This document shows positions 6,815-23,492 of a stretch of DNA of 34,190 nucleotides, one piece after another (position 1 is the first letter of the stretch; each line of letters begins with the position of its first letter). This stretch comes from Chloroflexota bacterium (lineage in GTDB: Bacteria > Chloroflexota > Anaerolineae > UBA1429). The position numbers and the translations under genes were made by a program. Under the pieces are notes generated by a model. The model searched no databases. It was given only the letters and a program-made list of their open reading frames with translations, and was not told the DNA's origin. Where the stretch lies: positions 1 through 34,190 of the forward strand of contig JAAYDS010000304.1 in assembly GCA_012729155.1 (NCBI GenBank). The letters run 5' to 3'.

Positions 6815-6848
6815 AAAAAGGCCCTCGCCCCATACAGGGACGAGAGCC
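6815..6848 (-). terminator. T-box intrinsic terminator of ileS leader
   Basis: Read on the minus strand, 6848-6837 (GGCTCTCGTCCC) pairs along all 12 positions, with some G-U pairs, with 6831-6820 (GGGGCGAGGGCC) around a 5-base loop; five T follow at 6819-6815. It lies between the T-box sequence and the ileS start, where a T-box terminator belongs. Confidence 0.88.
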
Positions 6849-7090
6849 TGGTAATCAGACTCGCGCGGTACCACCCCGCTTGGCCATAAAGGCCCGCTCT
6901 ACGCCGACCGGCTACCTGAGCCGAGCAGCTCGCCACGATAACGTGCAGCGAACCCGGACAGCTCTACTCACAAACGCTTTCGGCTGTCAGCTCGAGAGTG
7001 ATCTTGGGCCCCGTCGTGCGTGCCTGCTTTGCAGCTGCCGCAGACTCTCTGGACGCCGTAAGGAGCCTACTCGTCTCTGTCAACGCTTAT
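6815..7090 (-). promoter_or_regulatory. T-box riboswitch leader (tRNA-Ile specific) of ileS
   Basis: The roughly 275-base leader has the parts of a T-box in order on the minus strand. An AGAGAG purine motif typical of the Stem I kink-turn lies near 7048. A specifier-loop candidate reads AAGATCACTC with the codon AUC (Ile) at 7002-7000, followed by the usual purine. GAGCTGACAGCCGAAAGC closes Stem I. The invariant T-box GGGGTGGTACCGCG sits at 6877-6864, and the terminator at 6848-6815. By known mechanism, uncharged tRNA-Ile would pair with the specifier and, through its CCA end, with the T-box bulge, allowing read-through into ileS. The T-box sequence and terminator are directly visible; the Stem I fold is inferred. 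Confidence 0.93.
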
Positions 7091-7096
7091 AGGGTT

Positions 7097-8691: not shown

Positions 8692-8720
8692 TTGACACCA
8701 CGCCCCAGGTATGCTATGCT
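8692..8720 (+). promoter_or_regulatory. Promoter of the branched-chain amino acid operon
   Basis: A consensus TTGACA (8692-8697) is followed after 17 bases by TATGCT (8715-8720). The predicted start near 8727 lies just before the ribosome site of the leader peptide, so the leader RNA up to the terminator would be about 180 bases long. It is the strongest-looking promoter in the window. Confidence 0.83.
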
Positions 8721-8746
8721 GGCTGAAATCCGTAGGGGATCACATC

Positions 8747-8848
8747 TTGAACTCCTTACCGCTCATCGGCCTTCTGCTCGTACTATTTGGGCTCCTCATT
8801 ATTGAGGGGCAAATGCCGGTTGGGAGGGGTTCGCGCCAGCGCGCTTAG
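8747..8848 (+). CDS. Putative Leu/Ile/Val-rich leader peptide of the ilv operon (33 aa)
   Basis: A short frame starting with TTG at 8747, with AGGGG at 8734-8738 eight bases before it, and ending with TAG at 8848 (a second in-phase TAG follows). Residues 4-19 read LPLIGLLLVLFGLLII: 12 of 16 are Leu, Ile or Val, including the A/T-ending codons TTA, GTA and CTA that are presumably uncommon in this high-GC genome. The tail is basic (VGRGSRQRA). It starts about 20 bases after the predicted transcription start and ends 25 bases before the terminator stem, the position expected of an attenuation leader peptide for ilvDBNC and the leu genes. The alternative is a small one-helix membrane protein with a cytosolic basic tail. 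Both readings are inference; the frame, ribosome site and codon content are seen. Confidence 0.7.
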   Translation: MNSLPLIGLLLVLFGLLIIEGQMPVGRGSRQRA

Positions 8849-8905
8849 TTAGCCAAAAGCAAGAACCAAAAAAGAGCCTCACCCAACCAGGTGAGGCTCT
8901 TTTTT
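8749..8905 (+). promoter_or_regulatory. Transcription attenuator: competing RNA pairings upstream of ilvD
   Basis: Three exclusive pairings can be drawn. Region 1, 8749-8757 (GAACUCCUU), pairs over 9 positions with 8824-8832. Region 2, 8818-8832 (GGUUGGGAGGGGUUC), pairs at 14 of 15 positions with region 3, 8874-8888 (GAGCCUCACCCAACC), with one A-A mismatch. Region 3 also forms the 5' arm of the terminator with 8890-8905. A ribosome stalled in the early Leu/Ile codons would mask region 1, free region 2 and so block the terminator; one that reaches the stop at 8848 would cover part of region 2 and let the terminator form. An 8-bp hairpin at 8791-8810 may act as pause signal. The pairings are checked by eye; the mechanism is inferred from known ilv/leu attenuators. 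Confidence 0.72.
8868..8905 (+). terminator. Intrinsic terminator (attenuator) of the ilv leader
   Basis: AAAAAAGAGCCTCACC (8868-8883) pairs perfectly with GGTGAGGCTCTTTTTT (8890-8905) around a 6-base loop, giving a 16-bp stem ending in six T. There is no gene before it on this strand except the leader frame, so it can only act on the ilv operon transcript. Confidence 0.92.
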
Positions 8906-8990
8906 GACGGCCGAGGCAATGAGCGCAGTCAGGCAGTGTCGCGCCCGCAATGATGGGGGCGAGTGCGGTCGGTTGGCCGCCTACGCAAAG

Positions 8991-9036
8991 ACGCCACACC
9001 CATGCCATAAAGGCATGTGGCCGTGGCGTTGTGTTT
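8991..9036 (+). other. Second leader hairpin just upstream of ilvD
   Basis: ACGCCAC (8991-8997) pairs with GTGGCGT (9023-9029), and an inner CATGCC (9001-9006) with GGCATG (9012-9017); the downstream bases TGTGTTTT are T-rich. It may be a weak second terminator or an mRNA-stability element. Around it, 8906-9082 shows no convincing gene: only the ilvD ribosome site GGAGAGGAG at 9067-9075. Confidence 0.5.
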
Positions 9037-9082
9037 TCAGGCCGGGATGACTTGAGCCAAGCGCATGGAGAGGAGCAGGGTT

Positions 9083-10765
9083 GTGAGAAGCGACGTCATC
9101 AAAAAGGGTCTCGAACGCGCCCCACATCGTTCGCTGCTGTGGTCGCTGGGCCGCACCAATGAAGAGATGGACCGGCCCTTTGTCGGCATCATCAGCTCGT
9201 ACAATGATATCGTCCCTGGCCACATGAACCTCAGCCAGCTCAATGCCGCTGTGCGCGAAGGTGTTTTCATGGCAGGGGGCACGCCCTTTGAGGCCAACAC
9301 CATCGCCGTATGCGACGGCATCGCGATGGGACACCAGGGCATGAAGTACTCACTTGCCTCGCGCGAGTTGATCGCCGACTCGGTTGAAACCGTGGTGCAG
9401 GCCCACGCTTTTGATGCCATCGTGCTGGTCTCGGCGTGCGACAAGATCACACCGGGCATGGTGATGGCCATGGCCAGACTGGACATCCCCGCTATCATCG
9501 TTACCGGCGGGCCTATGCTTGCGGGCCGTCGCGGTGGTGAGACGCTGGACCTCAACAGCGCCTTCATGGCGGTGGGGGCAGCGACCAAGGGGCAGATCAG
9601 CGCCCGCGAGGTCGAGATCATCGAAAAGGCCTGCTGCCCCGGCTGCGGCTCGTGCGCCGGCATGTTCACAGCCAACACCATGGCCTGCCTGTGCGAAGCG
9701 CTGGGCATTGCTCTGCCGGGCAACGGCACCACGCCGGCGGTCAGCTCGCGGCGCATCGCCCTGGCGCGCCAGACGGGCATGGCGGTGATGACGCTGCTGG
9801 AACGCAACATCCGCCCCAGCGACATTCTCACCGCCGATGCCTTTCACAACGCCTTCTCCACCGACATGGCCATGGGCGGTTCGACCAACTCGGTGCTGCA
9901 CCTGCTAGCCATCGCCCACGAGGCAGGCGTGGCCATCGACCTGCCCGACCTGAATCATTTCTCGGCCAACACGCCACACCTCTGCAAACTCTCGCCGGCG
10001 AGCGAGCAGCACATTGAAGACCTGCACTACTCGGGTGGCATCGGCGCTATTATGCACGAGCTCGACGACCTGGGCTTGCTCAAGCGCAACTGCATCACTG
10101 TGACGGGGCAGACCGTCGGTGAAAACCTCACGCCCGAGAGCCGCTGGGCGCCAGACTATGCCACCGTCAGCCGCAACGTCGTCCGCTCAGGCGACCAGCC
10201 TTACTCTGCCACTGGCGGCCTGAGCATACTTTTCGGAAATCTGGCGCCAGAGGGCGCCGTGGTCAAAAGCGCCGCTGTGGCCCCGAGCATGATGCAGCAC
10301 ACCGGGCCGGCGCGTGTGTTCGACTCGGAAGAGGCGGCCACCAGGGCGATCATCGATATGTCGTTTGACGAAGGCGATGTGATCGTCATCCGCTACGAGG
10401 GGCCCAAGGGTGGCCCTGGCATGCGCGAGATGCTAACTCCGACTTCGCTACTGTCAGGGATGGGGCTCGACGGCAAAGTGGCCCTGATTACCGATGGGCG
10501 CTTCTCGGGCGCGTCGCGCGGAGCGGCCATTGGCCACCTGTCTCCCGAGGCGGCCGCTCGCGGGCCCATCGCTGCTTTGCGAGATGGCGACCTGATCTCG
10601 ATCGATATCCCTAACCGCAGTCTGCGTGTAGCGCTCTCTGATAAAGAGATCGCCGCTCGCATCGCGACCTTACCGCCCTTTGAGCCCACGGTGGCGCGAG
10701 GCTATCTGCGGCGCTATGCCCGCCTGGTGACCTCGGCCAGCACGGGCGCTGTGTTTGAGGAATAG
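9083..10765 (+). CDS. ilvD: Dihydroxy-acid dehydratase
   Basis: A 560-residue iron-sulphur enzyme that dehydrates 2,3-dihydroxy-isovalerate and -methylvalerate, the third common step of valine and isoleucine synthesis. Family motifs are [37 protein letters not shown] and [17 protein letters not shown], with the cysteines expected for the cluster, then GRFSGASRG near the C-terminus. GTG at 9083 is chosen over the upstream ATG 9065 because AGGAG at 9071-9075 is seven bases before it and the resulting [14 protein letters not shown] is the usual N-terminus. It is the first structural gene after the attenuator. The assignment is firm; IlvD/Edd relatives acting on sugar acids are unlikely given the operon. 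Confidence 0.96.
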
Positions 10766-10802
10766 GCATGACACACCGGCATACAAGCAAGGAGTCCCTG
10801 TT

Positions 10803-12491
10803 ATGCGGCTGAACGGCGCACAGATCTTGTGGGAATGCCTCGTCCGCGAGGGCGTTGATACCGTCTTTGGCATCACCGGTGGGGCGGTATTGCCTATCTA
10901 TCACGAGCTGCCCAACTATCCCATCCGCCACATCACCATGCGCCATGAGCAGGCCTGCGCCCACGCAGCCGATGGCTATGCGCGTGCTACTGGCAAGGTG
11001 GGTGTGTGCCTGGCAACCTCGGGCCCTGGTGCCACCAACCTGGTGACGGGCATTGCCACTGCGATGATGGACTCGTCGCCCATGGTGGCCATCACCGGAC
11101 AGGTGGCCACCAACGCCCTGGGCACCGATGCCTTCCAAGAGGTGGATATCACCGGCATCACCATGCCCATCACCAAGCACAACTATCTGATCACCGACGT
11201 GGCCGATCTGGCCTTGGCCGTGCGCGAGGCGTTCCACATCGCCAGTACAGGCCATCCGGGCCCTGTGCTGATCGACATCGCCAAAGACGCGCAGACAGCC
11301 GAGATCGAGTTCGAGTATCCGGACTACGTCAGCCTGCCAGGCTACAAGCCGCATACTCGAGGCAACCCTCGGCAGATCAAGCAGGCGGCTGATATGATCA
11401 ACACCGCCCAACGCCCGCTGATCATTGCTGGGCGTGGTGTGCTGGTTGCGGGGGCTCAGCAAGAACTGTGCGAGCTGGCCACCAAGGCACACATCCCCGT
11501 ATCGACGACCCTGCTGGGGAAGAGCGCCATCCCCGAGACCCATCCGCTCTGCCTGGGCATGGGTGGCATGCATGGCGAGGCATTTGCCAACTATGCGCTG
11601 CAGCAGTGTGACTTGATCTTTGCGGTGGGTATGCGCTTTGACGATCGTTACACCTCAGCAGCGGGCACATTTGCGCCCAATGCCAAGATCGTCCACGTGG
11701 ACATCGATCCCGCCGAGATCGCCAAGCGTATCCGCGTCGACCTGCCCATCGTGGGCGATGCCAAGAACGTGCTGCGGCAACTGCTGCCCCTCGTTGAGGA
11801 ACGTGACCTCGCAGACTGGCTGGGGCAAATCGATAGCTGGCGTGCCGAGACCCGTGACCGTGACGCGCTGTGGCAAGAAACAGACGAGGTACTGCCCCAA
11901 TACGTGGTGTTCAACATCTGGGAAGCCACCCGGGGCGAAGCTTTGATGGTGTCGGATGTGGGGCAGAACCAGATGTGGGAGGCACAGTACTACCGCCATG
12001 TGCGGCCCGGCGGCCTGATCTCATCAGGAGGGCTGGGCACCATGGGGTTTGCGTTGCCCGCAGCGATCGGCGCTGCCGCGGGCCGACCCGATTGCCAGGT
12101 GTGGGTGGTGGTCGGAGACGGCGGGTTCCAGATGACGCTGCAAGAGCTGGCCACCGTGATGCAGGAGAGGCTGCCCATCAAGATTGCCATCCTCAACAAC
12201 GGCTTTCTGGGGATGGTGCGGCAATGGCAAGAGATGTTCTTTCAAAAGAACTACTCTGGGTCACCTCTACTGGGGCCCGACTTTGCCAAGCTGGCCGAGG
12301 CCTATGGCATCGCTGCAGCCACCATCGAGTCCAAAGAGGGCGTGGCCGCTGCCGTCAAGGCAGCATATGACTCGGATGGCCCCATGGTGATCGACTTTCG
12401 TATCGAGCGCGAACACAATGTCTTTCCGATTGTGCCAGTGGGCCACCCCATCGATCAGATGATCCGCCGGCCCAAGCAAACCCAGCCGTAG
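10803..12491 (+). CDS. ilvB: Acetolactate synthase, large (catalytic) subunit
   Basis: A 562-residue thiamin-diphosphate enzyme joining two pyruvates, or pyruvate and 2-oxobutyrate. The N-terminal domain holds the catalytic Glu49 (RHEQACAHAADGYARATG); the middle domain is the FAD/DHS-like fold; the C-terminal domain has the TPP/Mg motif from GDG at 438-440 to LNNGFLGMVRQWQ. ATG 10803 is supported by AAGGAG at 10789-10794; the frame is open further upstream but overlaps ilvD. It lies 37 bases after ilvD and 14 bases before its regulatory subunit gene ilvN. Length and motifs are those of anabolic AHAS. Confidence 0.96.
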   Translation: MRLNGAQILWECLVREGVDTVFGITGGAVLPIYHELPNYPIRHITMRHEQACAHAADGYARATGKVGVCLATSGPGATNLVTGIATAMMDSSPMVAITGQVATNALGTDAFQEVDITGITMPITKHNYLITDVADLALAVREAFHIASTGHPGPVLIDIAKDAQTAEIEFEYPDYVSLPGYKPHTRGNPRQIKQAADMINTAQRPLIIAGRGVLVAGAQQELCELATKAHIPVSTTLLGKSAIPETHPLCLGMGGMHGEAFANYALQQCDLIFAVGMRFDDRYTSAAGTFAPNAKIVHVDIDPAEIAKRIRVDLPIVGDAKNVLRQLLPLVEERDLADWLGQIDSWRAETRDRDALWQETDEVLPQYVVFNIWEATRGEALMVSDVGQNQMWEAQYYRHVRPGGLISSGGLGTMGFALPAAIGAAAGRPDCQVWVVVGDGGFQMTLQELATVMQERLPIKIAILNNGFLGMVRQWQEMFFQKNYSGSPLLGPDFAKLAEAYGIAAATIESKEGVAAAVKAAYDSDGPMVIDFRIEREHNVFPIVPVGHPIDQMIRRPKQTQP

Positions 12492-12505
12492 AGAGGAGCA
12501 CTACC

Positions 12506-13042
12506 ATGAGCTTGCCCCCACCAGATAGTACCTTCTCACGGCGCACACTGGTTGTCTTGATGGAAGACAAACCGGGCGTGCTGAGCCATGTGTCGAACCT
12601 GTTCCGCCGCCGCAACTATAACATCGAGAGCCTGACGGTGGGGCACAGCGAGACGCAGGACATCTCTCGCATGACCGTGGTGGTGCACGCCAACGACGCC
12701 ATGCTCGAGCAGGTGGCCAAGCAGTTGTACAAGCTGATCAACGTCACCAAGGTGAGCGAGGTCAACACCGATGACGCGGTGATGCGTGAGCTGGCATTGA
12801 TCAAAGTGCACGCACCCTCGGCTCAGCGCGCTGAGATCAAGCAGGTGGTCGATATCTTTCGCGCCCAGATCATCGATGTGGCGCTCGACTCGATGGTTAT
12901 CGAGATCACTGGCGACGAGAGCAAAGTCGAGTCGCTGATCTCGATTCTCAAGCCCTTTGGCATCAAAGAGCTGACACGCACCGGCCGCGTGGCCATGATA
13001 CGAGGCTCACTGACCGCCAACGGCACACGCTTTGGGTCCTAG
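12506..13042 (+). CDS. ilvN: Acetolactate synthase, small (regulatory) subunit
   Basis: A 178-residue protein with an N-terminal ACT domain (about residues 11-85: RTLVVLMEDKPGVLSHVSNLF, then RRNYNIESLTVG) and the C-terminal domain typical of IlvH/IlvN long forms (KVHAPSAQRAEIKQVVDIFRA onward). It binds valine for feedback control and activates IlvB. ATG 12506 follows an AGAGGAG site at the end of ilvB, and the two genes are only 14 bases apart, as usual for an obligate pair. The gap to ilvC holds a small CGGCTC/GAGCCG hairpin at 13049-13063. Confidence 0.95.
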   Translation: MSLPPPDSTFSRRTLVVLMEDKPGVLSHVSNLFRRRNYNIESLTVGHSETQDISRMTVVVHANDAMLEQVAKQLYKLINVTKVSEVNTDDAVMRELALIKVHAPSAQRAEIKQVVDIFRAQIIDVALDSMVIEITGDESKVESLISILKPFGIKELTRTGRVAMIRGSLTANGTRFGS

Positions 13043-13093
13043 CCAGACCGGCTCATCGAGCCGCTGGACAAGCAGTACGAGGAGGCTCCCTTC

Positions 13094-14089
<996 letters not shown>

Positions 14090-14103
14090 ATGATCGCCGC
14101 AAC

Positions 14104-14133
14104 GCGTCGGCGGCGGTTCATCGCCGCCGACGC
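14104..14133 (+). other. Perfect intercistronic hairpin between ilvC and cimA
   Basis: GCGTCGGCGGCG (14104-14115) pairs with all 12 bases of CGCCGCCGACGC (14122-14133) around a 6-base loop. No T tract follows, so it is unlikely to end transcription; a role in mRNA processing, stability or relative dosage of upstream and downstream genes is more likely. Confidence 0.7.
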
Positions 14134-14157
14134 CTCTCAAGGAGTGAACCTGACCGT

Positions 14158-15768
14158 ATGGTAGAACGCGTCTCGGTCCTCGACACAACACTTCGAGACG
14201 GCGCACAGCGCGAGGGCATCTCGTTTTCTGTCAAAGACAAGCTGCGCATCGCCGCCAAACTCGACGAACTAGGCATCGCGTATATCGAGGGCGGCTGGCC
14301 CGGCTCGAATCCCAAGGACGCCGAGTTCTTTGCGCGAGCAGCACAGATGCACTGGCAGCATGCGCGCATCGCTGCCTTTGGGTCGACGCGCCGCGCTGAC
14401 AGCACGGTCGAGCAAGATCACAATGTTCAGGCGCTGATCGCGTGCGGCGCACCCGTTGCCGTGCTGGTGGGCAAATCTTCACCCATGCACGTGACAGAGG
14501 TGCTGCGCACAACGCTCGATGAGAACCTGGCGATGATCCACGAGACCGTCGCCCACCTCAAGTCGCGCGGCCTCGAGGTGCTCTTTGATGCTGAGCACTT
14601 TTTCGACGGCTATCGTCTCGACGCCGACTATGCCCTGGCGACGTTGCGCGCTGCGGCCGAGGCTGGCGCCGACAGGCTGGTGCTGTGCGACACGAACGGT
14701 GGCTGTCTGCCCTCTGAGGTTACGCGCATGGTCGCCGCGGTAACTGCGGCCTTCTCTAACCGCAGCATCGGCATCCATGCCCACGACGACACGGGTGTGG
14801 CCGTGGCCAACACACTGGCCGCGGTCGAGGCGGGCGCCGATCATGTCCATGGCACCATGAATGGCTACGGCGAGCGCTGCGGCAACGCCAACCTCAACAC
14901 GGTCATCCCAAACCTAGAGCTCAAAATGGGCATTAGGGCGCTGGCCAACGGCGACCTCTCGCTGCTGACACAGGCCTCGTCGTACGTTACCGAAATCGCC
15001 AACCTGTTGCCAGACCCACATGCTCCCTATGTGGGGCAGAGTGCCTTTGCCCACAAGGCTGGCCTGCACGTCAGCGCCATGCTCAAGAACGGCGAGGCGT
15101 ATCAGCATGTGCGCCCCGAGCTTGTGGGCAATGAAACGCGAGTACTGGTTTCTGAGCTGGCCGGACGCGGCAATATCGCCCACAAGCTCGCCGAGTTGGA
15201 TCTGGGGGTCGAGCTGAGCGCCGAGCGCGTGGGAGCGCTGGCCACGCAGGTCAAAGAGCGTGAGAGCAACGGCTATCAGTACGAAGGCGCCGAGGGCTCT
15301 TTTGAGCTGCTGATACGGCGCAGCCAGCCCGATTACCTGGCGCCCTTTGAGGTGCTCGACTTTTTGGTGCTGGTCGAAAAGCGTTCGGGGCGCGACATCC
15401 TCTCAGAGGCCACGGTCAAGGCCAGCGTCGATGGCATGACCATGCACACCGCCGCCGAGGGCGATGGCCCTGTAAACGCCCTCGACCGCGCCATGCGCAA
15501 GGCCTTGTTGCCCTTTTACCCTGAGCTGGGGCCAGTGCAATTGACCGACTATAAAGTACGCATCATCGACCCCAAGTCGGCCACGGCCGCCAAAACGCGA
15601 GTTCTGATCGACGCCAGCGATGGAGAACAATCTTGGACCACCATGGGGTGCTCGGTGAACATCATTGAGGCCAGCTTTGAGGCGCTGATCGACAGTCTAG
15701 AGCTACCGCTACTGCGGCGGGCCTCTGCCAGAGGGATTGCTGAGCCGGCCACGACCGCGGCCCAGTAA
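14158..15768 (+). CDS. cimA: (R)-citramalate synthase
   Basis: A 536-residue member of the LeuA/HMGL-like family that condenses pyruvate with acetyl-CoA to citramalate, opening the threonine-independent route to 2-oxobutyrate and isoleucine. The TIM-barrel motif [17 protein letters not shown] lies at residues 8-24, and [10 protein letters not shown], typical of the CimA branch, at 43-52. The metal-binding [12 protein letters not shown] and [12 protein letters not shown] follow; the C-terminal third is the LeuA-type regulatory domain. Only an AAGGAG 13 bases before ATG 14158 is seen, a long spacing. Being next to a separate, canonical leuA strengthens the CimA call. A homocitrate-type role is less likely. 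Confidence 0.9.
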
Positions 15769-15835
15769 TCCAGAGGCTCGCCAGGTGCAGCAGGTCGTCT
15801 GCCGACAACACGATCAGATGCCAAGGAGCACGGAT

Positions 15836-17422
15836 ATGGAAACCGATCGCATCATCATCTTTGACACCACCCTGCGCGACGGCGAGCAATCTCCCGGCGC
15901 CACGCTGAATACCAGCGAAAAGATCGAGATCGCGCGTCAACTGGCTCGCCTGGGCGTCGATGTCATCGAGGCTGGCTTCCCCGCTTCATCTCCGGGAGAT
16001 CTGGACGCCGTGCGCCGGGTGGCGCGCAGCGTACAGGGACCGGTCATCTGTGGCCTGGCCCGCTGCGTGCGCAGCGATATCGACGCCGCCTGGGAAGCCG
16101 TACAAGATGCCGAGCGCAAGCGCATCCACGTGTTCATCGCCACCAGTGATATTCACATGCAGCACAAGTTGCGCATGAGCCGTGAGCAGGTGCTCAACGC
16201 CACCCGAACCATGGTGGCCCACGCGCGCTCACTCTGCGAGGATGTCGAGTTCTCACCCGAGGATGGCGGCCGCTCTGACCCCGAGTTCCTCTATCAGGTG
16301 CTCGGCGAGGCCATCGCCGCCGGCGCCACCACGCTCAACATCCCTGATACGGTAGGCTATGTGACGCCCGACGAGTTCTACGAGCTCATCAAGGGCATCA
16401 AGGAGCACACTCCAGGCATCGAGAAAGCCATCATCTCTGTGCACTGCCACAATGACCTGGGCATGGCCGTCGCCAACAGTCTGGCGGGTGTGCGCGCCGG
16501 CGCACGGCAGGTCGAATGCACCATCAACGGCCTGGGCGAGCGTGCGGGCAACGCCGCGCTAGAAGAGTTGGCTATGGCGCTGCACACACGCCAAAGCTAC
16601 TATGGCCTGACCACCGGCCTCGCTCTGCAAGAGCTCTACCCCAGCAGCCGTATGGTCTCGAACTTTACCGGCCTCACGGTGCAGGCCAACAAGGCCATCG
16701 TAGGCGCCAACGCCTTTGCCCACGAAGCGGGCATCCACCAAGACGGCATCCTCAAGAACCGCCTCACCTATGAGATCATGGACGCGCAGATGGTGGGGGT
16801 GCCCGAGAGCCGCCTGGTTCTCGGCAAGCATTCGGGCCGCCACGCCTTTGCTGACAGACTGTTAGAGTTGGGGTATCATCTGGAGCACGATCAGCTCGAC
16901 AGAACGTTCACGCGCTTCAAAGACCTCGCCGACAAGAAAAAGGTCGTCACTGACCGCGACCTCGAGGCGCTGGTCTCGGATGAGGTGTTCCAGCCGGTGG
17001 AAGTGTATCGTTTGGAGCAGATTCAGGTCTCATGTGGCGACCACGCCATCGCCACAGCCACAGTGCGTCTACGTGCACCAGACGGCTCGCTGATCACCGA
17101 TGCCGCCCACGGCACCGGCCCGGTGGATGCTGTTTACAAGGCCATCAACCGTCTGATCGGTGTGCCCAACGAGCTGACCGAGTTCTCGATCAACGCCGTG
17201 ACCGAGGGCATCGATGCAGTGGGCGAGGTGACGATTCGCATCGAAGCCGGTGGCAATGGCGATGAGACGCTGCCGCTCAACCCGCAGACGGGCAAGCGCA
17301 CCTATGTATTCTCTGGCCACGGCGCCAGCACCGATATCATCGTGGCGAGCGCACGCGCCTACATGAGCGCTCTCAACAAACTGCTGGCTACCCGCAGCAC
17401 CACCGCCCAGGCCCAAGCATGA
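15836..17422 (+). CDS. leuA: 2-isopropylmalate synthase
   Basis: A 528-residue enzyme condensing acetyl-CoA with 2-oxoisovalerate, the first committed leucine step. [16 protein letters not shown] lies at residues 9-24, [11 protein letters not shown] follows, then [30 protein letters not shown] and [13 protein letters not shown] of the catalytic domain. A linker leads to the C-terminal allosteric domain that binds leucine (about residues 395-515). ATG 15836 has AAGGAG at 15823-15828 and gives the standard [16 protein letters not shown] start; the longer open frame overlaps only intergenic DNA and is discounted. Its stop overlaps a possible ATG of leuC. Confidence 0.95.
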
Positions 17423-17442
17423 CAAGGAGTATGAGCAAGCCG

Positions 17443-18705
17443 ATGCAACCCATGACCATGGCCCAAAAGATCCTGGCTGCCCACGCCGATCGGCCCGCCG
17501 TGCAGGTGGGTGAGTTGATCGATGTGCGCGCCGACATGGTGCTGGCCAACGACATCACCGCGCCCCTGGCCATCATCGAGTTCGCCAAGCTCGGTGTCGA
17601 TCGCGTCTTTGACCAGGACCGCATCGCGCTGGTGCCCGACCACTTTGCCCCCAACAAAGACATCAAGTCGGCCGAGCAGTGCAAAATGATGCGCGAGTTC
17701 GCCAAAAAGTACGGTATCCACAACTACTTTGAGGTGGGGCGCATGGGCATCGAACATGCGCTGCTGCCCGAGCAGGGCCTGGTGCTGCCCGGTGACGTTG
17801 TGGTCGGCGCTGACTCGCACACCTGCACCTATGGTGCAGTGGGCGCCTTTGCCACCGGCATGGGCTCTACCGATATCGCGGTGGCCATGGCCACCGGCCG
17901 TGCCTGGATGCGCGTGCCCGCCACCACTCGCTTTGTCTACAGCGGCACGCTACAACCCTGGGTAGGCGGCAAGGATCTGATCCTGCATACCATCGGCCTG
18001 ATCGGCGTCGAAGGCGCACGCTACCAGGCCATGGAGTTTGCCGGCCCGGCCATCGATGCCCTGAGCATCGACGGCCGCCTGACCATGGCCAACATGGCCA
18101 TCGAGGCGGGCGCCAAGGCCGGCCTGTTCCATGTGGATGCCACCACCGAGGCCTATGTCAAGCCTCGCGCGCAGCGCGCCTACCAGGCCTATGCCTCAGA
18201 CCCTCACGCGACTTACGATCGTGTGATCGAGATCGACGCCAGCAAGATCGAGCCGCAGATTTCGTTCCCGCATCTGCCCAGCAACGCCAGAGGCCTGAGC
18301 CAGGTGGGCGATGTCAGCATCGACCAGGCGGTGATCGGCTCGTGCACCAACGGCCGCTGGAGCGACCTGGTGCAGACGGCCGAGGTGTTGCGGGGCCGCC
18401 AGGTGCACCCTGATGTGCGCTGCATCATCATTCCTGGCACGCAGGCGATCTATCTGCGCGCCGTGCAAGAGGGTCTGGCACAGGTGTTTGTAGAGGCCGG
18501 CGCGGTGTTCAGCACACCCACCTGTGGCCCGTGCCTGGGCGGCTACATGGGCGTGCTGGCAGCCGGCGAGCGCTGCATCTCGACCACCAACCGCAACTTT
18601 CTGGGGCGCATGGGTCACGTAGAGAGCGAGGTCTATCTGGCCGGCCCCGCCATCGCGGCGGCCAGCGCCGTGCTGGGCCGCATCGGTGGGCCTGAAGAGC
18701 TGTAG
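17443..18705 (+). CDS. leuC: 3-isopropylmalate dehydratase, large subunit
   Basis: An aconitase-superfamily subunit of about 420 residues, the shorter HacA/LeuC2 type, which with LeuD isomerises isopropylmalate and, in the citramalate route, citramalate. Cluster-binding cysteines are at 301 (GSCTNGRW), 361 and 364 ([11 protein letters not shown]). [21 protein letters not shown] is also present. Start choice is uncertain: in-frame ATGs lie at 17419 (overlapping the leuA stop), 17431 and 17443; AAGGAG at 17424-17429 is too close to 17431 and 13 bases from 17443, which gives [12 protein letters not shown], close to the usual N-terminus. Unusually, thrC separates it from leuD. Confidence 0.94.
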
Positions 18706-18725
18706 CAGCCGAAAGGGCGAACGCC

Positions 18726-20063
18726 ATGGGCGAGCTATCCTGCTGGTTTGAGTGCGTACGCGGTTGCCCGGGCCGCCACTCGATCTATGACGTCATCTAC
18801 CAGTGCCCCACCTGCGGTGGCCTGCTCGAGGTGGTGCATGATGTGGCCACCCTGGCAGAGACGCCAGCTGACGCGTGGAAGCGGCTGTTCGACGCGCGCA
18901 TCCACAGCAACGACTGGCCCTTTGGCAGTGGCGTTTGGGGCAAGAAGGAATGGGTGTGCCCACAGATCGATGATGAGAACGTGGTCTCGATGTTCGAGGG
19001 CCACAGTAACCTTTTCTGGGCTCAGCGCCTGGGTCAGCAGCTCGGCGTCGAAGATCTCTGGGTCAAGATGTGCGGCATCAGCCACACTGGCTCGTTCAAA
19101 GACCTGGGCATGACCGTGCTGGTGAGTGTGGTCAAACAGATGATGTCGCAGGGTTCGCCGGTCAGAGCAGTGGCCTGCGCTTCGACGGGCGACACGTCGG
19201 CGGCCCTGGCCGCCTACGGCGCCGCTGCGGGCATCCCCACTATCGTGTTCTTGCCACGCAACCGCGTCTCGACGGCGCAGCTCATCCAGCCTATCGCTAA
19301 TGGCGCCCTGGTGCTGGCGCTCGATACCGATTTCGATGGCTGCATGGCTATCGTCAAAGAGATCACCCAAGACAACAGCGTCTATCTGGCCAACTCGATG
19401 AACTCGCTGCGCATCGAGGGGCAAAAGACCGTCGGCATCGAGATCGTGCAGCAGTTCGACTGGCAGGTGCCCGACTGGATCATCATCCCGGTGGGCAACC
19501 TGGGTAACGTCAGCGCCCTTGGCAAGGGCCTCATGTTGATGCGCGAGCTCGGCCTCATCGATCGCCTGCCACGGCTGGTGGCCGCACAGGCGGCGCGAGC
19601 CAACCCCTTTTACCTCAGCGCGCAAGGTGGCTTCCAAGAGTTGGTGCCGGTGGTGGCTCAAAAGACGCTGGCCAGCGCCATACAGATCGGCAACCCGGTG
19701 AGCTATGAGCGCGCCGTCAAGGTGATGCAGGCATTCAACGGCATTGTTGAGCAGGCCACCGAAGATGAGATCGCCAACGCCGCCGCGCGCGCCGATCTCA
19801 CCGGCATGTATGCCTGTCCACACACCGGCGTAGCCCTCTCTGCCCTGTTCAAGCTGGTCGAACGCGGCGAGATCGCCCGCCACCACCGGGTGATCGTCAT
19901 CTCGACGGCCCACGGTCTCAAGTTCACCCAGTTCAAGGTCGACTATCACAAGAACCAGATCGACGAGGTGGAGGCGCGCCATCCCAATCCCCCCGTCGAG
20001 CTACCGCCCGACATCAACCTGGTGCGCGGAATCATCGCGCGTCATCTCGACTCTGTTGCATAA
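18726..20063 (+). CDS. thrC: Threonine synthase
   Basis: A 445-residue PLP enzyme converting O-phosphohomoserine to threonine. The N-terminus has a zinc-ribbon-like set of cysteines (C10, C14, C27, C30 in YQCPTCGG); the PLP lysine is K125 in [25 protein letters not shown] and [15 protein letters not shown] bind the cofactor phosphate and substrate. The gene lies between leuC and leuD with 20 and 11 base gaps and is clearly part of the operon. Threonine synthase is the best call; related fold-type II enzymes such as cysteate synthase cannot be fully excluded from sequence alone. Confidence 0.88.
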
Positions 20064-20074
20064 AGGAGCTTGCC

Positions 20075-20584
20075 GTGGCAATCAGCGGACGCGTCTGGAA
20101 GTATGGTGACAACATCGACACCGATGCCATCGTGCCTGCCAGGCACCTGAATATCTCTGATCCCGACCAGTTGGCCGCCCACTGTATGGAAGACTGGGAT
20201 GCGTCATTCGTCAGTGGCGTCAGGCCCGGCGATATCATTGTGGCGGGCAGCAACTTTGGGTGCGGCTCTTCGCGCGAGCACGCACCGGTGGCCATCAAAG
20301 CCAGTGGCATCTCGTGCGTCATCGCCGCCACCTTTGCGCGCATCTTTTTCCGCAATGCCATCAACATCGGCCTGCCCATCCTCGAGTGCCCCGAGGCCGC
20401 CGCGGCCATCGAAGCTGGCGAGACGGTAGAAGTCGACCTGGCCGCTGGCACCATCCGGCGCGTGGCTACGGGCGATGTCTACCAGTCCACCGCCTACCCA
20501 CCCTTCATGCTCGATCTGATCAACGCCGGCGGGCTCGTCGAGTACACCCGTCGACGCCTCCACGCTGGACAAAGCGATGAATAG
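20075..20584 (+). CDS. leuD: 3-isopropylmalate dehydratase, small subunit
   Basis: A 169-residue partner of LeuC with the short LeuD2 form: [15 protein letters not shown] near residues 12-26 and the substrate-specificity loop segment [14 protein letters not shown], then [21 protein letters not shown] 20075 is supported by AAAGGAG at 20062-20068. The stop at 20584 overlaps the pheA start by eight bases, which implies coupled translation. With LeuC it serves both leucine and citramalate-derived isoleucine synthesis, as is usual for organisms with CimA. Confidence 0.95.
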
Positions 20585-21419
20585 CGGGTTGCGCATCGCC
20601 TTTCAGGGTGAGGCAGGCGCCTACAGCGAAGAGGCGGCCCTGGCACTCTATCCTGGTGCGCAGCCCTGCCCCTGCGAGTCGTTTGATGCGGTCTTTGCAG
20701 GCGTTGAGTCAGGCCTGTACGACCAGGGCGTGGTGCCCGTCGAGAACTCGCTGGCCGGCAGCATACACCGCAACTATGACCTGCTGCTGCAGCACAAGCT
20801 CTACATCATCGCCGAGCACACTCTGCGCATCAGCCATTGTTTGATCGCTCACCCAGGCGTTTCGCTGAGCGAGATCACCCAGGTGTATTCGCATCCACAG
20901 GGGCTGGCGCAGTGCGAGCAGTCTCTCGCCAGGCTGGGCGAGGTGCAGCGCATCGCCGCCCATGACACGGCCGGCAGCGTGCGGCTGGTTCGTGATGAGG
21001 GCTGGCGACATGCAGCGGCCATCGCTAGCAAGCACGCCGCCCAAATCTATGGCATGCAGGTGCTCATCGAGCAGTTCGAAGACGACAAGAGCAACTATAC
21101 CCGCTTTATCGCCATCGCACGTGAGCCGGTGCAGCCTACTGGCGAGGCCAAGACGGCCATCGCCTTTGCGGGCATCAACCAACCAGGGCTGCTCTTTCGC
21201 TGTTTGAGCGCCTTTGCCTTGCGCGACATCGACTTGTGCAAGATCGAATCGCGCCCCATGCGCGGCGTGCCCTGGGAATACATCTTTTTCGTCGAATTCG
21301 CGGGCAGTATCAGTGAAGAGCGCTGTCGCCGTGCCCTCGGCCATCTAGAAGAGATGGCCACCTTTGTGCGCGTGCTCGGGTCTTTTCCGCGCGCCAGGCC
21401 CACCGAGAACGGACAGTAG
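20577..21419 (+). CDS. pheA: Prephenate dehydratase
   Basis: A 280-residue single-function enzyme converting prephenate to phenylpyruvate for phenylalanine. The catalytic part shows [14 protein letters not shown] at the N-terminus, [19 protein letters not shown] and the active-site TRF at 175-177. The C-terminal ACT domain (about 190-270) carries [18 protein letters not shown], the phenylalanine-binding region. There is no chorismate mutase domain. ATG 20577 lies inside the 3' end of leuD. Its place in a branched-chain operon is unusual; the downstream aminotransferase IlvE could use its product. Confidence 0.95.
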
Positions 21420-21432
21420 AGGAACCGATACA

Positions 21433-22500
21433 ATGGATTACCAGATCGCCCTGCTCGGCGGAGACGGCATCGGCCCAGAGGTGATAGCCCAGGCCGCCCG
21501 AGTGCTCGAGCGCGTGGGAACCGCCTTTGGCCATTCTTTTGTGTTCAAGCCGGCATTGATCGGTGGCTGTGCTATCGATGCCACCGGCAGCGCCCTGCCC
21601 GATGAGACGTTAGCCGCCTGCCGCTCGGCCGATGCCGTGCTGCTGGGCGCGGTAGGTGGCCCCAAGTGGGACAACCCCACCGCCACAGTGCGCCCCGAGC
21701 AGGGGTTGCTGGGCATTCGCAAAGGGCTCGGGCTCTATGCCAACCTGCGCCCCGTCAAGATGAACGAGATGCTGATTGGAGCCTCGACCATCAAGCCCGA
21801 GGTACTGCGCGGCACTGATTTGGTGGTGGTGCGCGAGCTCACAGGCGGCATCTATTTCGGCGAGCGTGGCCGCCGCGACGACGGCAACACCGCCTACGAC
21901 ACCATGATCTACAGCCGTGCCGAGATCGAGCGGGTGTTGCACACCGCGTTCAGGCTGGCGCGGCAACGCCGCGGCAAGGTCACCTCGGTCGACAAGGCCA
22001 ACGTGCTCGAGAGCTCGCGCCTGTGGCGTGAAACGGCCACGATTGTGGCCAAGGCCTACCCCGATGTCGCCTTTGAACACCTGCTGGTAGATGCCTGCGC
22101 CATGCACCTGATTCGCCGGCCAGCCACGTTCGACGTGATCGTGACTGAGAACATGTTCGGAGATATCCTCACCGATGAGGCCTCGATGCTCGCCGGCTCG
22201 ATGGGCATGCTCCCCTCGGCCTCTCTCGCAGAGGGCACCCTGGGCCTCTACGAGCCAATCCACGGTTCGGCGCCAGACATCGCCGGGCAAGGCATCGCCA
22301 ACCCGGTAGGCGCCATCCTCAGCGCGGCACTGCTGCTGCGCCTCTCTTTGGGGCTCGAGCAAGAGGCCCTGGCCGTTGAGCGGGCTGTCGACCAGGTACT
22401 GGCCGAAGGCTACCGCACCCGCGACATTGCCGAAAACGCCTCGGAAGTGATCACGACCACAGTGATGGGCGACCTGATCTGCGAGCGCGTGACAGCCTAA
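21433..22500 (+). CDS. leuB: 3-isopropylmalate dehydrogenase
   Basis: A 355-residue NAD-dependent beta-decarboxylating dehydrogenase, third step of leucine synthesis; with CimA present it, or this enzyme on methylmalate, also yields 2-oxobutyrate. GGDGIGPEV lies near the N-terminus, [14 protein letters not shown] near 130, [14 protein letters not shown] and the metal site [20 protein letters not shown] follow, then [19 protein letters not shown] for NAD. ATG 21433 gives the standard N-terminus with AGAGGA a few bases before it; the longer open frame overlaps pheA. Confidence 0.96.
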
Positions 22501-22520
22501 ATCAGGAAGGAGTCTCTGTC

Positions 22521-23444
22521 ATGCCGATGCCACAGTCCGAGTTCATCTGGTTCGATGGCGAGTTCGTGCCCTGGGGTGACGCCAAGGTGCACGTACTGGC
22601 GCACGCGATGCACTATGGTTCCAGCGTTTTCGAGGGCATACGCTGCTATGAGACGCCCAGGGGCCCGGCAGTCTTTCGCCTGGGCAAACACGTGCGACGC
22701 CTGTTCGACGGCTGCAGGGTCTACCGCATGGAGATTCCCTACAGCCAGGAGACCATCGCCCAGGCCATCAAAGACACGGTCTCGAAGAATGGGCTGCGCT
22801 CATGCTACATCCGCCCGCTGGTGTGGCGTGGCTATGGCCAGCTCGGCGTCGAGCCGCGCACCTGCCCTGTGCAGGTGATGGTGGCCGCGTGGGACTGGGG
22901 CACCTACCTGGGCGACGATGCGTTGGAGCAAGGCGTGGATATCGGTGTCTCTTCATGGCGACGGGCGGCCCCTGACACCTTCCCCTCGATGGTCAAGGGT
23001 GGCGGGCACTATATGAACTCGCAGCTCATCCGCATGGAGGCGGCCGACAACGGCTATTCTGAGGCGATTGCCCTCGACGTGTATGGCTATGTGAGCGAGG
23101 GCAGCGGCGAGAACATCTTTCTGGTGCGCGACAATGTGCTCTCAACACCGCAGGTGGGCACGTCGCTGCTCGGTGGCATCACTCGCGACAGTGTGATCAC
23201 CATCGCCCGCGACCTGGGCTATACCGTGCAAGAGCGACCCATCGCGCGCGAAGAGCTATACATGGCTGAGGAGCTGTTCTTTGCGGGCACGGCCGTCGAG
23301 ATCTCGCCCGTGCGCTCGGTCGACCACATGGTGGTGGGCCAGGGTAAACGCGGCCCAGTGACGGCAGCGCTCCAAAAGGCGTTCTTTGAGCGCGTACGTG
23401 GCGAGGCGCCCGATCCTTACGGCTGGCTAGACTACGTCAGATAG
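22521..23444 (+). CDS. ilvE: Branched-chain amino acid aminotransferase
   Basis: A 307-residue class IV PLP aminotransferase performing the last step of Val, Leu and Ile synthesis. [18 protein letters not shown] lies near residues 38-55, the PLP lysine is K159 ([14 protein letters not shown]), and [10 protein letters not shown] and [11 protein letters not shown] complete the fold signature. AAGGAG before ATG 22521 is strong. It is the last gene of the operon and is followed by a terminator. D-amino acid aminotransferase and ADC lyase share the fold but lack this context. Confidence 0.95.
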
Positions 23445-23456
23445 CAGAAAAGCAGC

Positions 23457-23492
23457 CCGAGAGGGCCAGCCCATCTGGGCTGGCCCTCTCGG
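23457..23492. terminator. Terminator ending the branched-chain operon (two-way)
   Basis: CCGAGAGGGCCAGCCC (23457-23472) pairs perfectly with its reverse complement at 23477-23492 around a 4-base loop. The T tract on the plus side is poor (CTTGTC). It lies between convergent genes ilvE and the sugar kinase, so it probably serves both. Confidence 0.8.

Follow-up and report, generated by a model that had tools for sequence, protein, structure and literature searches.

How is the long ilv–leu operon of this member of the Chloroflexota controlled, and does the short stretch of DNA in front of its first gene, ilvD, act as a leader-peptide attenuator? We analysed the whole 34,190-nucleotide stretch shown above (referred to here as the window) together with the corresponding regions of related genomes. 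The layout of the leader, its conservation and the match between its codons and the genes behind it make it very probable that the region is a ribosome-mediated transcription attenuator for branched-chain amino acid synthesis, as the first-pass annotation had proposed.

The leader and its surroundings

The features on which the argument rests are as follows, with the strand and the kind of evidence in parentheses.

6833–7092 (−): T-box before ileS (Rfam match, RF00230, 96.5 bits)
8692–8720 (+): putative promoter of the sigma-70 type, TTGACA at 8692–8697, 17 nt, TATGCT at 8715–8720, with TG 5' of the −10 element (sequence)
8732–8739 (+): putative ribosome site GTAGGGGA, 7 nt from the start codon (sequence)
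8747–8848 (+): leader frame MNSLPLIGLLLVLFGLLIIEGQMPVGRGSRQRA and stop, 33 codons including the stop, TTG start (kind of peptide shared by relatives)
8749–8772 (+): region 1, of which 8749–8757 pairs with region 2 and more pairs reach to about 8772 (folding; own-genome test)
8790–8810 (+): conserved hairpin within the leader frame, GGCTCCTC-ATTAT-TGAGGGGC (GCTCCTC–GAGGAGC) (covariation; fixed spacing)
8818–8832 (+): region 2, GGTTGGGAGGGGTTC, encoding VGRG(S) inside the leader frame (folding; covariation)
8868–8905 (+): intrinsic terminator (3:4), 16 bp, 6-nt loop, T6 (folding; covariation)
8874–8888 (+): region 3, terminator 5' arm plus loop (folding; covariation)
8985–9037 (+): second conserved hairpin between the attenuator and ilvD, with a GCAAnG..GCC motif and a T-run (relatives)
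9065–23444 (+): operon ilvD-ilvB-ilvN-ilvC-cimA-leuA-leuC-thrC-like-leuD-pheA-like-leuB-ilvE, co-directional

The 12 genes of the operon are separated by gaps of at most 68 bp, and both their identities and their common direction agree with the earlier reading of an ilv–leu operon 3' of the leader; a strong inverted repeat (23457–23492) lies just 3' of ilvE. Inside the operon there are also a threonine-synthase-like gene (18726–20063) and a prephenate-dehydratase-like gene (20577–21419), and through the latter phenylalanine synthesis may fall under branched-chain control. The neighbouring gene that had been taken to use a T-box is ileS, which is preceded by the RF00230 match. Rfam matched no T-box or other riboswitch before ilvD, placing the ilvD leader outside the T-box family. 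The window thus appears to have a tRNA synthetase gene (ileS) under a T-box and biosynthesis under a leader peptide, while in some relatives the attenuator is found at leuS instead; the upstream sequence shown for the leuS gene of this genome contains no attenuator, and the covariance model gave no match there.

The promoter, the ribosome site and the 33-codon frame described previously are all present in the sequence, and residues 4–19 of the frame include 12 Leu, Ile or Val residues. Such a run (12 of 16 residues) is reached by only two of the 1046 nested short ORFs (20–60 amino acids, both strands) in the window, and by inspection these two are probably two nested starts of the leader frame itself. 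The locus has, as a predicted frame with its signals, a putatively translated stretch of codons for the regulated amino acids with a ribosome site after a promoter. The TTG start codon counts against the attenuator reading. Of 105 related leaders, 80 have a promoter with three or fewer mismatches 5' of their frame; among 105 shuffled ones the number is 5.

An intrinsic terminator, AAAAAAGAGCCTCACC-CAACCA-GGTGAGGCTCTTTTTT (−29.1 kcal/mol), stands before the first structural gene. The 16-bp terminator with six T of the first-pass annotation is present, but the six T belong to the stem, where they form six A–U pairs, which leaves a G+C core of 10 bp. The pairing of regions 2 and 3 covers 14 of 15 positions, exactly as had been counted, with one A–A mismatch and two G–U pairs (−25.4 kcal/mol). 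Dinucleotide shuffles of the leader gave −16.3 ± 2.6 kcal/mol, with 6 of 1000 as good, and none of 1000 other stretches of the window matched this energy. The pairing between regions 1 and 2 (−24.3 kcal/mol) reaches beyond the nine positions originally given. All three pairings (1:2, 2:3 and 3:4) were found in the window and they exclude each other, and the leader as a whole folds with an energy 4.9 standard deviations below that of its own shuffles.

Spread and covariation in the Chloroflexota

IlvD was searched for in 60 relatives and the DNA upstream of it was examined. A leader of the same layout precedes ilvD in 14 of the 15 genomes listed for the family of the window, its own genome included, and the exception (G002) has a weaker match only. 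An example of the leader peptide in this family is IILVLVELLVIEEPLPVGRGSR; other families of the class share the plan, and leaders of this layout occur widely before ilvD or ilvB in the class Anaerolineae. Both the frame and the pairings, on whose conservation in relatives the first-pass annotation had staked its reading, are therefore kept. A covariance model, R1, built from 22 leaders found matches in 232 of the 396 class genomes and in 67 of 301 genomes sampled from the phylum as a whole, at a cut-off of E ≤ 0.01 per genome, at which about 3–4 matches are expected by chance; 164 of the 396 class genomes were without an attenuator match. An exact pattern gave 23 matches in the named genome collection, 16 of them in Chloroflexota with R1 scores of 76–139 bits. 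The other seven, from other phyla or unnamed bacteria, scored at most 17.6 bits with R1 and were taken as chance. As the leaders are related these counts are not independent; a non-redundant set gave the same result. Judged from these sequences, the leaders form one family of predicted attenuators in much of the Anaerolineae and some other Chloroflexota, with a small regulon.

Tandem or closely spaced attenuator matches were seen at L079:340–938, L101:358–1390, L147:2020–2445 and L193. The L193 matches were rejected as false positives, the peptide being a Flp-pilin-like protein.

An alignment of 75 distinct hits was fitted to the in-frame hairpin and terminator helices and so leans towards those two; in it 95.8% of the cells of these helices hold standard pairs, 17 of 18 pairs show changes on both sides, and the covariation score is 0.506 versus 0.177 for shuffled alignments (0 of 500). 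The values are 94.7% of cells paired and 11 of 11 pairs changed on both sides for the terminator, and 97.8% and 6 of 7 for the in-frame hairpin. On four of five measures none of 500 shuffles equalled the 2:3 helix, which lies outside model R1, and the helix also surpassed all slid versions of itself. Independently of this alignment, we compared own with permuted partners in 48 dissimilar leaders: region 3 pairs with its own region 2 at −21.4 kcal/mol and with partners from other genomes at −16.6 kcal/mol (0 of 5000), and the corresponding values for 1:2 are −18.1 and −16.6 kcal/mol (0 of 5000 permutations). The 1:2 pairing is the weakest of the covarying pairings (z about −4). Examples can be followed by eye, such as GTGTTTGGGAGG with CCTCCCAAAC in G027 and GGTTAGG with CCTAACC in G279. 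The exclusive 2:3 and 1:2 pairings are thus conserved by covariation, and the covariation among relatives proposed earlier as a check on 1:2, 2:3 and 3:4 came out positive across the hairpin and terminator alignment and the own-genome tests.

The hairpin at 8790–8810 was overlooked in the first-pass annotation. It ends 11 nt 5' of the TT/GGG step in region 2, and this distance recurs in 63 of 65 hits, a set that includes six leaders whose frame ends at the hairpin (for G008 the spacing is 11 by alignment and 10 by eye). Its loop is a multiple of three in 50 of the 58 leaders that read through. Coding cannot hold the 11-nt distance where the frame ends at the hairpin, so a constraint on the RNA is likely. 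Pause hairpins of attenuators lie about 11 nt from a pyrimidine–G step, and by analogy the in-frame hairpin may be a candidate pause signal for RNA polymerase. Hairpin-stabilised pausing of RNA polymerase in general is treated elsewhere (PMC6336406).

The second hairpin (8985–9037), also missed at first, carries a GCAAnG..GCC motif that recurs in 17 of 22 ilvD leaders of relatives; a strict form of this motif gave zero matches in the genome. It may be a second terminator or may serve to stabilise the RNA. A riboswitch was also considered, but an aptamer is unlikely because the space from the terminator to the hairpin is only ∼20–30 nt in several relatives.

Control codons and the genes behind the leaders

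The gene 3' of the 131 distinct hits is ilvB in 50 cases, ilvD in 45, leuS in nine, leuA, cimA and ilvE in two each, and leuC and ilvC in one each; 19 were not assigned, some of them being false positives or contig ends. The identity of leuS was confirmed by Pfam domains (four cases), that of leuA by NCBIfam and that of cimA by comparison with both paralogues in the window. Citramalate synthase leads to isoleucine synthesis, while isopropylmalate synthase and leucyl-tRNA synthetase are concerned with leucine. The same division is seen in the control residues: with leader frames picked by a rule that favours Leu, Ile and Val, the median of (I+V)/(L+I+V) is 0.57 in ilvB and ilvD leaders versus 0 in leuS and leuA leaders (Mann–Whitney p = 1.2e-7). 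Ile and Val are nearly absent from the leuS and leuA leaders, which carry Leu, the ilv leaders are mixed, and the two cimA leaders, with 64% and 91% Ile, exceed every ilv leader. The Leu/Ile/Val codons that were expected to be conserved in relatives are thus conserved in a particular way, with control residues specific for the product of the pathway behind them (Ile before cimA, Leu before leuA and leuS, a mixture before ilvB and ilvD). Codon usage in the leaders also differs from that of the following gene, ATT making up 70% versus 23% of the Ile codons and CTT 33% versus 5% of the Leu codons; part of this preference for rare codons may serve the folding of the RNA.

Some leaders stand before genes of other kinds. 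Family f32 has a Leu/Ile/Val leader attenuator before the gene for a tiny protein (about 67–71 amino acids) with the conserved end HPEWHDPEWRYYHGAWGG, found in nine of the ten genomes of the family (L081:2203–2403 on the minus strand, L082, L085, L086, L153 and L199–L207); the protein had no match in NCBIfam. In G199 it lies between two tandem attenuators, the second of which is before ilvB (L079). Outside amino acid synthesis, the same type of attenuator (L075, L076 and L077) is found 21–30 nt before a gene for a ferritin-like protein in G020 and before a gene for a protein of 137–138 amino acids in G026 and G061.

Mechanism, alternatives and known systems

The attenuation logic of ilv and leu operons, to which the first-pass annotation had appealed, gains support from the conserved layout, the covariation and the match of codons to genes. 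The parts, their mutual exclusion, their conservation and covariation and the codon match can be read from the sequence, and from them we infer how transcription, stalling and read-through would proceed at this leader. RNA polymerase would start near 8727 and a ribosome would begin on the 33-codon leader. A shortage of charged Leu-, Ile- or Val-tRNA would stall the ribosome in codons 4–19, and the stalled ribosome would keep region 1 from region 2, so that the emerging region 3 would pair with region 2 as an antiterminator and RNA polymerase would enter the 12-gene operon. When amino acids are plentiful the ribosome would pass through the in-frame region 2, blocking 2:3 and leaving the 3:4 terminator to form; were there no translation, 1:2 would hold region 2 and transcription would terminate too. 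A polymerase pause at the hairpin at 8790–8810, 11 nt before the U–G step, may let the ribosome catch up.

Masking simulations on the window RNA behave in a similar way. With the A site at codons 4–9 most of 1:2 is lost and 2:3 can form, and with the A site at codons 26–30 2:3 is lost and 3:4 follows. With no ribosome, 1:2 is already in place by the time region 3 emerges, and the completed RNA contains 1:2 and 3:4. Two results fit the scheme less neatly: stalls at codons 11–19 leave region 1 free to pair, and when the transcript is truncated a ribosome on the stop codon of the window leaves 11.9 of the 14 2:3 pairs. The stop codon typically lies 18–29 nt past the start of the 20-nt region-2 window, and in our leader it is farther from region 2 than in most relatives. 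Because region 2 is inside the frame and a ribosome parked at the stop codon of the window covers only its end, termination would need a moving ribosome or 1:2. A further point against the scheme is that at equilibrium the full-length RNA forms 3:4 whatever the state of the ribosome; the choice must then be kinetic, as it is in known attenuators.

The short frame could instead encode a real hydrophobic micro-protein, a membrane helix, with the hairpin behind it a mere intergenic terminator. The peptide LIGLLLVLFGLLII does resemble a membrane helix, a hydrophobic composition yields Leu, Ile and Val with no role in control, and some other hits in the class are plainly such genes, as the Flp-pilin-like false positive at L193 illustrates. 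The need for a membrane helix would not, however, produce control residues that track the downstream gene, as they do in leuS and leuA leaders that are nearly without Ile and Val and in cimA leaders that are mostly Ile. The hairpin, 2:3 and 1:2 also covary, the leader codons are rare ones, and G001 and G008 keep region 2 although their frame ends directly behind the hairpin. Against this evidence we consider a micro-protein very improbable.

A leader acting on translation or RNA stability, by exposing the ilvD site or protecting the message, would need no termination. The second conserved hairpin just 5' of ilvD fits such a role, as does the Streptomyces coelicolor ilvB leader, in which codon changes were without effect (PMC1262725). 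A canonical terminator with its T-run is nevertheless kept and covaries in nearly all hits, and in the window it lies ∼160 nt from the ilvD start, so that this reading is left with a slim chance. It is also conceivable that a trans-acting element, either a regulatory protein or a tRNA-binding T-box, controls the operon and that the leader is a relic, given the adjoining T-box before ileS and the 164 of 396 class genomes in which no attenuator was matched. Rfam, however, places no T-box or riboswitch before ilvD, and a relic would not show purifying selection on its pairings and codons throughout the class, which makes this explanation exceedingly improbable.

The closest textbook counterparts are the enterobacterial ilvGMEDA, ivbL-ilvBN and leuABCD attenuators (PF08046; RF00512), which share with these leaders a peptide rich in the regulated amino acids, mutually exclusive 1:2, 2:3 and 3:4 pairings and a terminator before the first biosynthetic gene; the Chloroflexota leader differs in having an additional hairpin within the frame, at a constant distance of 11 nt from region 2. 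The Pfam family IlvGEDA_leader (PF08046) did not match the window peptide, the best score among seven leaders being 10 bits (cut-off 25). No Rfam leader family matched at its gathering threshold; the window gave Thr_leader (31.9 bits versus 55), and other leaders gave Phe_leader (33.1 versus 55) and Leu_leader (34 versus 50, on the antisense strand). In Actinobacteria candidate leader peptides with runs of Ile, Val and Leu occur before ilvB, and candidate leuS attenuators of the classical kind in Streptomyces (PMC1262725). In that study the mode of regulation of ilvB was unclear and codon changes were ineffective in S. coelicolor, whereas in the Chloroflexota leaders 2:3 and 1:2 are conserved and the codons follow the gene. 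The S. aureus ilvD attenuator, which is leucine-rich and has genetic support (PMC5794164), and the Listeria ilv leader (PMC5864092) likewise have an Ile/Leu leader peptide before ilvD of an ilv–leu operon. The antiterminator proposed in S. aureus would pair with the U-tail without disrupting the terminator stem, whereas region 2 of the window pairs with the terminator 5' arm and loop.

A 2010 account gave Proteobacteria and Actinobacteria as the only phyla with known leader-peptide systems, and Firmicutes were then added (PMC2965389). The known range given in the first-pass annotation, Proteobacteria and Actinobacteria, is correct for those two phyla and has to be widened to Firmicutes (S. aureus, PMC5794164; Listeria, PMC5864092). 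In the open literature searched we found no report of a leader peptide or of attenuation in the phylum (Chloroflexi or Chloroflexota); Lopatovskaya et al. 2010 (Mol Biol 44:128; cited in PMC4833913) could hold such a prediction, and priority therefore cannot be claimed. The mechanism is textbook, while the family, its regulon and its spread appear to be new. A more far-reaching joint reading, which we put forward tentatively and rate at somewhat under an even chance, is of a Chloroflexota-specific attenuator family in which one RNA scaffold with a pause-programming hairpin is reused, by swaps of the control codons, for a regulon of ilvB, ilvD, cimA, leuA, leuS, ilvE and the 67–71 amino-acid protein of one family.

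Leader-peptide attenuation requires close coupling of transcription and translation. The leaders described here would extend it to another deep bacterial phylum, whose members are mostly uncultured, and they would amount to a natural experiment, a single RNA scaffold with control codons that differ according to the gene behind. The set could be used for predicting regulons from sequence, for tests of coupling in the Chloroflexota and as a new RNA family with its covariance model.
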